A stretch of DNA of 30,586 nt, taken from the IMG/VR virus record IMGVR_UViG_3300047481_001941, positions 1 through 30,586 of that record. The stretch is one strand, 5' to 3'. Of the stretch, positions 2 through 7,913 are shown piece by piece. This DNA is from a virus. Position 1 is the first letter of the stretch; each line of letters begins with the position of its first letter. The notes below the pieces were generated by a model. That model did no database searches, had not been told where the DNA came from, and saw only the letters and a list, made by a program, of their open reading frames with translations. The position numbers and the translations under genes were made by a program.

Positions 2-388
2 CAAAAAGTTTTTGCAATTGGAGATTCTACTGATCACTTGGTTCAAACCCGTGTTTTGGCATCTTATGGTATTCAGTCATCATTTAATTACAGCCTTTCT
101 TTTGCTGACCTTGACCATGAGCTTGCTGCTGGGAGACCTGTTGTTATTGGTATCCTCCATAGGGGCTCTTTATCTGCTCCTACTGGTGGGCATATGGTTG
201 TAGTGATTGGTAAGACTCCATCGGGTGATTATGTAGTGAATGATCCCTACGGAAGTCTGAATGATGGTTATACTGGTGCTGTAACTAATGGAAAAGGTGC
301 TGTTTATAAAAAGTCTGAACTCACACGTCGTTGGACTCCTGATGGTCCAAAGTCTGGATGGGGTAGACTGTTTGATGCAAAAAAGTAG
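2..388 (+). CDS. C39-like peptidase domain protein (3' part; start lies before the window)
   Basis: The frame is open from the window edge to the TAG at 386-388, so only the C-terminal part is visible. It contains GGHMVVVIG followed by DYVVNDPYG, the pattern around the catalytic His and Asp/Asn of papain-like C39_2 peptidases; the catalytic Cys would lie upstream of the window. In this family such domains cleave peptides, and in phages they are found with lysins or virion proteins. The last codons before the stop form the heptamer A AAA AAG, and the -1 frame then runs without a stop through a Thr/Asn-rich linker into the lysozyme at 439. This ORF and the lysozyme may therefore be one frameshifted polypeptide. 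A separate short protein is the alternative. Confidence 0.72.
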   Translation, partial: QKVFAIGDSTDHLVQTRVLASYGIQSSFNYSLSFADLDHELAAGRPVVIGILHRGSLSAPTGGHMVVVIGKTPSGDYVVNDPYGSLNDGYTGAVTNGKGAVYKKSELTRRWTPDGPKSGWGRLFDAKK

Positions 389-447
389 AAACGCCAACTA
401 ACAATACCAACGAAGTAAAAAATACCAACGGAGTATCGTTGGTTGGC
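379..447 (+). promoter_or_regulatory. Candidate -1 programmed frameshift element (A AAA AAG plus downstream stem)
   Basis: A AAA AAG at 379-385 is in the correct phase for the upstream peptidase frame (gcA AAA AAG TAG). Seven bases later, 393-402 can pair with 438-447 to form a 10-bp stem with one G-U pair; the 35-nt loop carries two copies of an 18-nt imperfect repeat. The heptamer is the one used in E. coli dnaX. The arrangement is seen directly; function is inferred. A homopolymer sequencing error could produce the same break. Confidence 0.5.
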
Positions 448-3680: not shown

Positions 3681-4760
3681 ATGACTGCTACAATTGCTTC
3701 ACGTCAACAATCGAATATTTGGGAACAGTTTTGCAACTGGGTAACTTCAACCGATAACCGCCTCTATGTAGGTTGGTTCGGCGTTCTGATGATCCCTACC
3801 CTGCTTGCTGCTACGACTTGTTTCATCATCGCCTTTATTGGCGCACCTCCTGTGGACATCGACGGCATCCGTGAACCTGTTTCCGGTTCTCTAATGTATG
3901 GAAACAACATCATCTCTGGTGCTGTTATCCCTTCGTCCAACGCAATTGGACTGCACTTTTACCCAATCTGGGAAGCTGCTTCACTTGATGAGTGGCTATA
4001 CAACGGTGGTCCGTTCCAACTTGTTGTCTTCCACTTCCTGATTGGTATCTATGCCTATATGGGTCGTGAGTGGGAACTTTCCTACCGTCTGGGTATGCGT
4101 CCTTGGATTTGTGTTGCCTACAGCGCACCCGTTGCTGCTGCTTCTGCTGTATTCCTGGTCTATCCTTTCGGTCAAGGTTCTTTCTCTGATGCGATGCCTT
4201 TGGGTATCTCTGGTACATTTAACTACATGCTTGTGTTCCAGGCTGAGCACAACATCTTGATGCACCCCTTCCATATGCTTGGAGTTGCTGGTGTCTTCGG
4301 TGGTTCTTTGTTCTCTGCGATGCACGGTTCTCTGGTGACCTCTTCGCTGGTTCGTGAGACCACTGAGAACGAGTCACAGAACTATGGTTACAAGTTCGGT
4401 CAAGAAGAAGAGACCTATAACATCGTTGCTGCTCACGGTTATTTCGGACGCCTTATTTTCCAATATGCTTCCTTTAATAACTCACGTTCACTTCACTTCT
4501 TCCTTGCTGCCTGGCCTGTTGTAGGTATCTGGTTCACCGCTCTTGGTGTGAGCACTATGGCTTTCAACTTGAACGGTTTCAACTTCAACCAGTCTTTGCT
4601 TGATAGTCAGGGTCGTGTGCTCAATACTTGGGCAGATGTCCTTAACCGTGCCGGACTTGGAATGGAAGTGATGCACGAACGAAATGCTCATAATTTCCCT
4701 CTTGACCTTGCTGCTGCTGAAGCAACTCCTGTTGCTCTTACTGCTCCTGCAATCGGTTGA
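3681..4760 (+). CDS. psbA: Photosystem II D1 protein
   Basis: D1 is the core reaction-centre protein of photosystem II in the thylakoid membrane. It turns over fast in light, and phage copies sustain electron flow during infection. The 359-aa product is full length. Visible functional residues are Tyr161 (TyrZ), Asp170, Glu189, His190, His198 (P680 ligand), His215 and His272 (iron), and His332/Glu333/His337/Asp342 near the Mn cluster. The C-terminal extension after Ala344 is retained. Residue 130 is Glu, as in the high-light D1:2 form. The gene is not interrupted by an intron. It has its own promoter pair, a structured leader and a terminator. It is richer in G+C than the flanking phage genes, consistent with host origin. 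Confidence 0.99.
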
Positions 4761-5630: not shown

Positions 5631-5655
5631 GAGACCTGTGAAGGTCTCTTTTTTT
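5631..5655 (+). terminator. Rho-independent terminator fused to a late promoter
   Basis: GAGACC (5631-5636) and GGTCTC (5643-5648) flank a 6-nt loop and are followed by seven T (5649-5655). The last T is also the first base of TATAAATA (5655-5662). Confidence 0.85.
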
Positions 5656-5662
5656 ATAAATA
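5655..5662 (+). promoter_or_regulatory. Late promoter TATAAATA before the HNH gene
   Basis: This is a perfect T4 late consensus that begins with the final T of the preceding terminator. It lies 29 nt before the ATG at 5692. Confidence 0.55.
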
Positions 5663-5691
5663 GTTATGTAGTAGACACAGTAGCAGTAAGA

Positions 5692-6270
5692 ATGAAACAT
5701 AAACATCATATTGTTCCAAGACATATGGGTGGAACTGACGACCCTTCTAATCTTATTGAACTAACTGTGGAAGAACACGCAGAGGCACACAGAGAGTTGT
5801 GGGAACAATATGGTAATATCAAAGATTATTGTGCTTGGAAAGGTTTAGAAGGAACTATTGGTAAAGAAGAAATTGTAAGATTGCTGATGGACCCAACTGG
5901 AAGAGTTCATACAGAAGAGACCAAACAAAAGATGAGTGAAGCACATAAAGGTAAACCAAAGCACACAGAAGAAAGCAAAGAAAAATTGAGACAGTTTAGA
6001 ACTGGTGCAAAAATGAGTGATGAGCAAAAAGAAAAAATAACACAAAGTTTGATAGGAAATACAAGATGTCTTGGTAATAAACTAACAGAAGAACATAAAG
6101 AAAATCTTTCTAAAAGTATGAAAGGTAATAAAAATGCTTGTGGTCCTCAAAAAGTTAGTGAAGAGGCAAAAAGAAATAGAAGCGAAGCATCAAAAGAAAG
6201 GTGGAGAAAATATAGAGAGGCAAAAGGTCTTGACCCAAACAAACCTATTGATAAGAGATACGATAAGTAA
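5692..6270 (+). CDS. HNH homing endonuclease with NUMOD3-type repeats
   Basis: The N-terminus KHKHHIVPRHMGGTDDPSNL with LTVEEHAEAHRELWE is an HNH-type nuclease core. The rest carries helical DNA-binding repeats of the NUMOD3 kind (HTEETKQKMSEAHKGK, HTEESKEKLRQF, LTEEHKENLSKSMKGN, VSEEAKRNRSEASKERW). It would cut DNA at a homing site, probably in or near the psb genes of related phages. The ATG at 5692 was chosen because an in-frame GTG at 5638 lies in the terminator loop. It lies immediately before psbD and is much more AT-rich. No split gene is visible, so it is a free-standing homing gene. Confidence 0.88.
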   Translation: MKHKHHIVPRHMGGTDDPSNLIELTVEEHAEAHRELWEQYGNIKDYCAWKGLEGTIGKEEIVRLLMDPTGRVHTEETKQKMSEAHKGKPKHTEESKEKLRQFRTGAKMSDEQKEKITQSLIGNTRCLGNKLTEEHKENLSKSMKGNKNACGPQKVSEEAKRNRSEASKERWRKYREAKGLDPNKPIDKRYDK

Positions 6271-6334: not shown

Positions 6335-7396
6335 ATGACTTCTTCTACACTTTCAATTCCAAATCAACAAAAAGGTTGGTTTGATTTATTAGATGATTGG
6401 TTAAAAAGGGACAGGTTTGTTTTTGTTGGTTGGAGTGGTTTGCTCTTATTTCCAACAGCATATCTTGCTCTGGGTGGTTGGTTGACTGGAACAACATTTG
6501 TTTCATCGTGGTACACACACGGTATTGCTTCCAGTTATTTGGAAGGTTGCAACTTTTTGACCGCTGCGGTAAGCACCCCTGCTGACGCTATGGGTCATTC
6601 TCTTCTTCTACTTTGGGGTCCTGAGTCTCAGGGAGATTTCGTCCGCTGGTGCCAACTTGGGGGACTCTGGCCTTTTGTGGCGCTCCACGGATCTTTCGCT
6701 CTGATTGGATTTATGCTTCGCCAGTTTGAGATTGCTCGACTGGTCGGTATCAGACCCTATAATGCCATCGCATTCTCTGGTCCTATCGCTGTGTTCGTCA
6801 GCGTCTTCCTGTTGTATCCTCTAGGACAATCCAGTTGGTTCTTTGCACCATCGTTTGGTGTTGCTGCTATCTTCAGGTTCCTTCTGTTTCTTCAGGGTTT
6901 CCACAACTGGACTCTCAACCCCTTTCATATGATGGGAGTTGCTGGTATACTGGGAGGAGCACTGCTCTGTGCGATTCATGGAGCAACTGTAGAAAATACA
7001 CTTTATGAAGATGGCGATCAGTCGAATACTTTCAAAGCGTTTGAACCGACTCAAGAGGAAGAGACTTATTCTATGGTTACGGCTAACAGATTCTGGTCTC
7101 AGATCTTTGGTATTGCTTTCAGCAATAAACGTTGGTTGCACTTTTTTATGCTTTTCGTTCCAGTTATGGGCCTCTGGACTTCTTCTATTGGCATCATCGG
7201 TCTTGCTCTTAACTTACGTGCCTACGACTTTGTATCTCAGGAAGTTAGAGCGGCAGAAGATCCAGAGTTTGAAACGTTCTATACAAAGAACATCCTCCTT
7301 AATGAGGGACTTAGAGCGTGGATGGCACCAGTAGACCAGCCACACGAACAGTTTGTATTTCCAGAGGAAGTGCTCCCGAGGGGCAACGCACTCTAA
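6335..7396 (+). CDS. psbD: Photosystem II D2 protein
   Basis: D2 pairs with D1 in the photosystem II reaction centre. The 353-aa product is complete. Numbering is one ahead of the usual cyanobacterial form: Tyr161 (TyrD), His190, His198 (P680 ligand), His215 and His269 (iron ligands) are all present. The C-terminus VLPRGNAL is typical. It has its own upstream motifs and a strong terminator and is flanked on both sides by HNH genes, consistent with a cassette spread by homing and recombination. The first ~200 nt look AT-rich and phage-like while the middle looks host-like, suggesting mosaic ancestry. Phage copies help keep photosystem II running in infected cells. Confidence 0.99.
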
Positions 7397-7514: not shown

Positions 7515-7544
7515 ATAAATACTCATAAGTCGCAAGCACTTATG
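7515..7544 (+). promoter_or_regulatory. Late-type motif and start-codon hairpin
   Basis: ATAAATA (7515-7521) is followed by CATAAGT (7524-7530) and ACTTATG (7538-7544), a perfect 7-bp inverted repeat. Its right arm contains the start codon of the HNH gene. In read-through RNA the start would be hidden, whereas a late transcript starting near 7527 would lose part of the left arm. Confidence 0.5.
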
Positions 7545-7913
7545 GGACCTCTCCAATCGCCCGAAGAATACTTGTTCAATCTACAAGCAACAAGTCACTC
7601 AGAAGCAAAACGATTATGGAGAAAGCAAATAAAAGAAAGTTGGGATCATAAATGTGCTTATTGCGGTTCAGAAGAAGATTTAACTCTTGACCATGTTATT
7701 CCACAATCAAAAGGTGGGTTAGACATTACAAGAAATGTAGTATGTTGCTGCAAATCTTGTAATCAATCTAAAGGACACGATCACTGGAAATTGTGGTATG
7801 TCCAGCAAGATTTTTATTGTGAGAGAAAATTTAATTTGATAGAAGAATGGATGGCACCACCAAAACCAACTAATCTTTATGCATATCGTCCAAGGAAAAA
7901 TATTGCATATTAG
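7542..7913 (+). CDS. HNH endonuclease (zinc-binding type)
   Basis: The 123-aa protein has the canonical HNH module: CAYCG, then LTLDHVIPQSKGG (catalytic His), then NVVCCCKSCNQSKG, with two CxxC zinc knuckles. It begins MGPLQSPEEYLFNLQ. This family nicks or cuts DNA; as a free-standing gene beside psbD it is probably a homing endonuclease acting on psb alleles that lack it. It is a different subtype from the NUMOD3-type gene upstream of psbD. Start-codon access may be hairpin-controlled. Confidence 0.9.
   Translation: MGPLQSPEEYLFNLQATSHSEAKRLWRKQIKESWDHKCAYCGSEEDLTLDHVIPQSKGGLDITRNVVCCCKSCNQSKGHDHWKLWYVQQDFYCERKFNLIEEWMAPPKPTNLYAYRPRKNIAY

Follow-up and report, generated by a model that had tools for sequence, protein, structure and literature searches.

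The window analysed here is a 30.6-kb viral record of the T4-like cyanophage type, with psbA (3681-4760) and psbD (6335-7396), both identified from their translations, and a gp53-type baseplate gene as markers. Two HNH endonuclease genes, one of them with NUMOD3, lie between psbA and psbD (5638-6270) and just after psbD (7542-7913). These are possibly homing endonucleases tied to the two photosystem genes.

At the left edge of the window, frame 0 codes for the C-terminal 128 residues of a C39-like peptidase (positions 2-388, plus strand), the 5′ end of the gene being lost at the contig end. The N-terminal part and the catalytic cysteine are thus outside the window, and the C39 assignment comes from intact relatives, which match PF13529 (Peptidase_C39_2, at 51.6 bits; 1.9e-13 for the protein of Synechococcus phage S-PM2). 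Searching solved structures with a profile of the peptidase gave no match. A fold search with predicted structures of relatives, made from contig sequences, found likeness to PCAT1 and ComA in their C39 peptidase domains, and a weaker likeness to a pseudomurein endoisopeptidase. The peptidase presumably cuts wall peptides.

The peptidase is followed, in the -1 frame of the same strand, by a linker and a GH24 lysozyme (385-891, 168 codons and a stop). The lysozyme matches Phage_lysozyme PF00959 at 82.5 bits, against a cut-off of 22.3, with an E-value of 4e-23, and PDB lysozymes are also matched. It contains the sequence FEG...YPD...TIG, which, judged by eye, we take to hold the Glu, Asp and Thr catalytic positions of T4 lysozyme.

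The two frames meet in a very compact junction. The peptidase ends GCA (377-379) AAA (380-382) AAG (383-385) TAG (386-388), and the slippery heptamer A_AAA_AAG (379-385, plus strand) stands directly before the stop codon. The same word is conserved at this place in 61 unique relatives. The open stretch of the -1 frame spans 376-891, giving a 13-nt overlap of which the heptamer occupies 7, and a product spanning the junction would read ...KK|VETPTNNTNEVKNTNGVSLVGIKLIKEFEG... and continue into the lysozyme domain. The original prediction placed the heptamer correctly, and also stated that the lysozyme frame has no ATG start. This is borne out, and in the window GTG is likewise absent from the -1 frame upstream of the domain. 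Nor does the junction itself supply a start over the upstream stop, since AAGTAG yields only GTA and no ATG or GTG.

A 10-bp stem had been predicted 7 nt after the heptamer, and the folding calculations agree. The 5′ arm (GCCAACTAAC, 393-402, plus strand) pairs with the 3′ arm (GTTGGTTGGC, 438-447, plus strand) through nine Watson-Crick pairs and one G-U pair. The stem is separated from the heptamer by a 7-nt spacer (386-392) whose first bases are the TAG stop, and it encloses a loop of 35 nt. This stem is the minimum-energy fold of positions 386-455, at -19.5 kcal/mol (z = -4.76); none of 200 shuffled sequences was as stable, and the helix itself has p = 0.005 against shuffles. The 3′ arm also codes for the start of the lysozyme region (SLVGI). 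The loop (403-437) contains an imperfect 15-nt tandem repeat, AATACCAACGAAGTA / AATACCAACGGAGTA, and among relatives its length ranges from 3 to about 39 nt.

The same break is found in cultured phages. S-PM2 reads ...GAT GCA AAA AAG TAA; its lysozyme follows in the -1 frame, again without a start, and the original, RefSeq and deletion-mutant records of this phage all agree, including the A6 run. The two isolates of S-CAM7 that were examined have a like arrangement with a different slippery word, GTT TTT TTT CCA CAG TAG. The genes annotated as 'lysins' in GenBank for S-PM2 and S-CAM7 begin deep within the lysozyme domain (L003 2152-2370, L008 1989-2261, L195 1743-1961), because no start codon exists further upstream. 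Frameshifting would explain these truncated annotations, and the 95-residue PHROG family named endolysin, phrog_10457, may have been built on such genes.

These records bear on a first objection, namely that the true gene is one fused ORF and the break either a sequencing or assembly indel in the run of A or a recent frameshift that inactivated the gene. Runs of A are indeed error-prone, ACG-2014f has one uninterrupted ORF, and three contigs with A7 in place of A6 (L064, around 2366; L075 and L077, around 2363) read through from peptidase to lysozyme as a single ORF with the stem kept; these could be real variants or assembly indels. Against this, the break recurs in several isolates and in dozens of unrelated metagenomic contigs, it is also found at G_GGA_AAG and C_CCA_AAG, where there is no long homopolymer, and the stem is conserved. 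Moreover, both halves look functional and under purifying selection: comparison of the window with four relatives gives dN of 0.12-0.20 and dS of 0.9-1.3 for the peptidase, and dN of 0.12-0.25 and dS of 1.35-1.65 for the lysozyme. The resulting dN/dS, a rough estimate with dS near or above 1, is about 0.14-0.19 in the peptidase and 0.07-0.19 in the lysozyme. An artefact or pseudogene is rejected on the basis of the isolates, the number of contigs, dN/dS and the homopolymer-free heptamers, and we consider it extremely unlikely.

Relatives were drawn from a viral contig collection using peptidase, lysozyme and other queries, and their junctions were classed by profile searches. The first set contained 88 unique split junctions, 87 of them overlapping, and all 87 overlaps put the lysozyme in the -1 frame. 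A heptamer without an overlapping start was present in 69, an ATGA or GTGA overlap without a heptamer in 10, both in 8, and neither in none. A larger set provided 96 unique junctions of the frameshift type, again all -1, although these are related by descent and are not independent events. They comprise 61 with A_AAA_AAG (the A class), 20 with G_GGA_AAG (the G class), 11 with C_CCA_AAG and 4 with T_TTT_TTT. Although the heptamer helped to define the class, no start-less -1 split lacking one was found. The heptamer touches the stop codon in 87 of the 96, with one or two codons between them in the remainder, and the median frame overlap is 16 nt. In the A class the lysine pair is coded AAA-AAG in all 61 cases, whereas the lysine codons used in the rest of these genes predict that pair in 23%. 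Of the 96 0-frame stops, 69 are TAG, 26 TAA and one TGA, and TAG accounts for 53 of the 61 in the A class. A TGA following AAG creates GTGA, which would place the junction in another class; this does not account for the excess of TAG in the A class.

The stem is almost as constant as the heptamer. Taking p≤0.05 against dinucleotide shuffles as significant, 94 of the 96 junctions have a stem, with an uninterrupted helix of 7-17 bp beginning 4-8 nt past the heptamer (59/61 for A_AAA_AAG, 20/20 for G_GGA_AAG, 11/11 for C_CCA_AAG and 4/4 for T_TTT_TTT). The sequences of the arms vary by lineage and yet pair: GCCAACTAAC/GTTGGTTGGC, ATCAACACCACA/TGTGGTGTTGAT, AGTTCTATTCC/GGAGTAGAACT and GCGGCAG/CTGCCGC. 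In aligned registers, both partners have changed at 12 of 86 pairs, a sign of covariation, and 46 further types of pair occur. Since the 3′ arm of A-class stems codes for the start of the lysozyme region, we infer that the 5′ arm, in the linker, had to follow it. The interpretation originally offered, -1 frameshifting, is thus strongly supported by the combination of break, heptamer and well-spaced stem at 96 distinct junctions, and by stems that co-vary.

It is also necessary to consider whether the lysozyme is made as a separate protein, from an internal start or by ribosomes that re-initiate past the stop (translational coupling). Overlapping ATGA or GTGA starts do occur in 18 unique relatives, 10 without a heptamer and 8 with one. 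In the window, a TTG at 439-441 has a GGAG (430-433, plus strand) 5 nt upstream. This possible start, shared with one relative (L015), did not feature in the original prediction. Among the 20 G-class junctions, 18 carry an ATG in frame shortly ahead of the domain, but single-ORF relatives have these ATGs too, as plain methionine codons. Of the 61 A-class junctions, only one has an ATG in the interval and only four have a start of any kind accompanied by an SD-like motif; the TTG of the window lies partly inside the stem. Two separate proteins would moreover leave the heptamer and the stem unexplained. A significant stem is found at none of the 10 start-overlap junctions without a heptamer, and at one of the 8 that have both. 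Judged from its sequence context, initiation at TTG439 may add some free lysozyme as a minor product in this phage, but with SD-bearing starts so rare internal initiation is rejected as the conserved mechanism, and separate synthesis of the lysozyme appears very unlikely.

The third alternative is transcriptional slippage on the A-run, producing mRNAs of differing length. The A6 and T8 runs are homopolymers, as this would require, but the G_GGA_AAG and C_CCA_AAG sites have a like stem in a like position and contain runs of only 3. In addition, a stem spaced at 4-8 nt is typical of ribosomal rather than polymerase slippage. Transcriptional slippage is rejected on the G_GGA_AAG and C_CCA_AAG cases, and its probability is close to nil.

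From sequence comparison we conclude with high confidence that the junction carries a signal for programmed -1 ribosomal frameshifting, which would add a lysozyme to part of the product of this cyanophage lysis gene. The window contains what is expected of a bacterial -1 signal, namely an efficient heptamer in the overlap, a start-poor and conserved -1 ORF, a stem, and conservation with compensatory changes. In a systematic study in E. coli, the highest efficiencies with a stimulator, up to 54%, were those of C_CCA_AAG, G_GGA_AAG and A_AAA_AAG, and H_HHU_UUY motifs were likewise efficient (PMC4066793). These types cover all four words found here, with E. coli serving as a stand-in for the cyanobacterial host. 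An upstream SD-like stimulator is not claimed: the strength of SD-like pairing at -20 to -4 is -5.7 kcal/mol, compared to -6.2 kcal/mol in the class without frameshifting, where the signal is equally strong.

The proposed mechanism is as follows. A ribosome translating the peptidase frame would come upon the heptamer A_AAA_AAG and, 7 nt beyond it, the stem-loop. The majority of ribosomes would be expected to terminate at the adjacent TAG, releasing a short protein consisting of an N-terminal module and the C39 peptidase. With the stem as stimulus, a fraction would re-pair in tandem on A_AAA_AAG one base back, and by translating the linker and what follows would give a bifunctional fusion of N-terminal module, C39 and GH24 domains. 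For S-PM2 the predicted products are 231 residues (short) and 394 residues (long). The lysozyme would then be made mainly as a C-terminal extension, and slipping, at whatever rate it presumably occurs, would set the ratio of the short form to one able to cut glycan strands as well.

Frameshifting by -1 is standard in phage tail chaperones and in IS elements. The signal described here resembles the dnaX and IS-element type in its class of heptamer, a stem 4-8 nt downstream, a nearby stop, and the expectation of a short and a long product. It differs in that the gene is a phage lysis enzyme, the heptamer varies by lineage, and the SD-like signal is no stronger than in the class without frameshifting. 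The tail chaperone gpG/gpGT of lambda is similar in being a phage gene in which a -1 shift puts a C-terminal extension on part of the product, but it functions in tail assembly and not in lysis. According to a title cited in PMC10885494, the suggestion for T4-like tail chaperones is a mechanism that does not involve frameshifting. The authors of that work, on PRFect, count lysins among the known frameshifting genes, and the references they give for this begin with a paper of 1994 on a Lactococcus phage lysin encoded by two overlapping genes (PMC10885494). As far as the citation tells, that is also a phage lysin from two overlapping frames, although in a different phage, host and gene. Closer in outcome is LysA of mycobacteriophage Ms6, where one lysis locus gives two forms of lysin, and frameshifting at a GTGA overlap has been suggested (PMC3111421). 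The second form there comes from a gene embedded in frame, and the available text of that paper does not mention a slippery heptamer or a stem (PMC3111421).

Text searches of the open-access literature found no earlier report of frameshifting in a cyanophage lysin. The signal is a textbook one, while the class of gene and the host group are new, and the evolutionary turnover is unusual. The lysis enzyme of widespread marine and freshwater cyanobacterial viruses would thereby join the short list of phage gene types with a -1 frameshift.

The domains joined by the frameshift are not the same in all the relatives. The C39 peptidase has a gene of its own, further upstream, in the G_GGA_AAG clade, as seen in L316. 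The 0-frame product is here an N-terminal module of about 71-76 residues, DLHNFF...NHVKAVQWLEDNLP... ending in CPHCGKPLGK (L316 2271-2501, L153 1747-1959). Pfam matched the module only below threshold, to zinc ribbons, where the G class has its CPHCGK tail. The tail looks like half a zinc ribbon and is absent from single-ORF relatives, including L329, a close relative of the G clade in which module and lysozyme form one ORF. Frameshifting would so join the lysozyme to a shared N-terminal module, with or without the peptidase between them. A choice between protease and protease-lysozyme cannot be its general purpose, because the short product of this clade has no protease. For the same reason, the signal has probably originated or been rebuilt on more than one occasion. 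On the lysozyme tree, in which few branches are well supported, parsimony requires at least 21 changes between frameshifting and other arrangements.

The original prediction was to fall if there were an extra or missing A, or if relatives carried one uninterrupted ORF, and for most close relatives this refutation does not hold. Some relatives do carry a single ORF, and these fit as alternative solutions to the same domain pairing. A fixed ratio of short to long product cannot be essential everywhere, because some relatives live with a plain fusion. We suggest, tentatively and as a possibility close to evenly balanced, that cyanophages have repeatedly gained or remade -1 frameshifting to place a lysozyme on the N-terminal module, with or without C39. 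They would have done so using the three best bacterial heptamers and T_TTT_TTT, in exchange with fusions and start/stop overlaps, the rate serving to control the dose or timing of lysis. One gene pair occurring as an in-frame fusion, as a frameshift with four slippery words and as a start/stop overlap constitutes a natural experiment. The evolution of the signal and the reason for frameshifting are open to study in cultured S-PM2 and S-CAM7, with ACG-2014f as the fused comparison.

Some junctions have mixed features. A_AAA_AAG is combined with an overlapping ATGA or GTGA start in L002, L036, L043, L116, L120, L122 and L148, mostly without a significant stem, and these junctions may represent a transitional state between frameshifting and coupling. 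Altogether eight relatives pair a heptamer with an overlapping start, mostly without such a stem, so a heptamer by itself does not diagnose frameshifting. L134 and L143 (around 2009) are in-frame fusions in which A_AAA_AAG persists ahead of sense codons and traces of the stem arms survive. They look like frameshift sites that have turned into fusions, or the other way round. In S-CREM1 (L007 697-1878) the domains are fused in the reverse order, with the lysozyme first, followed by the N-terminal module and C39.
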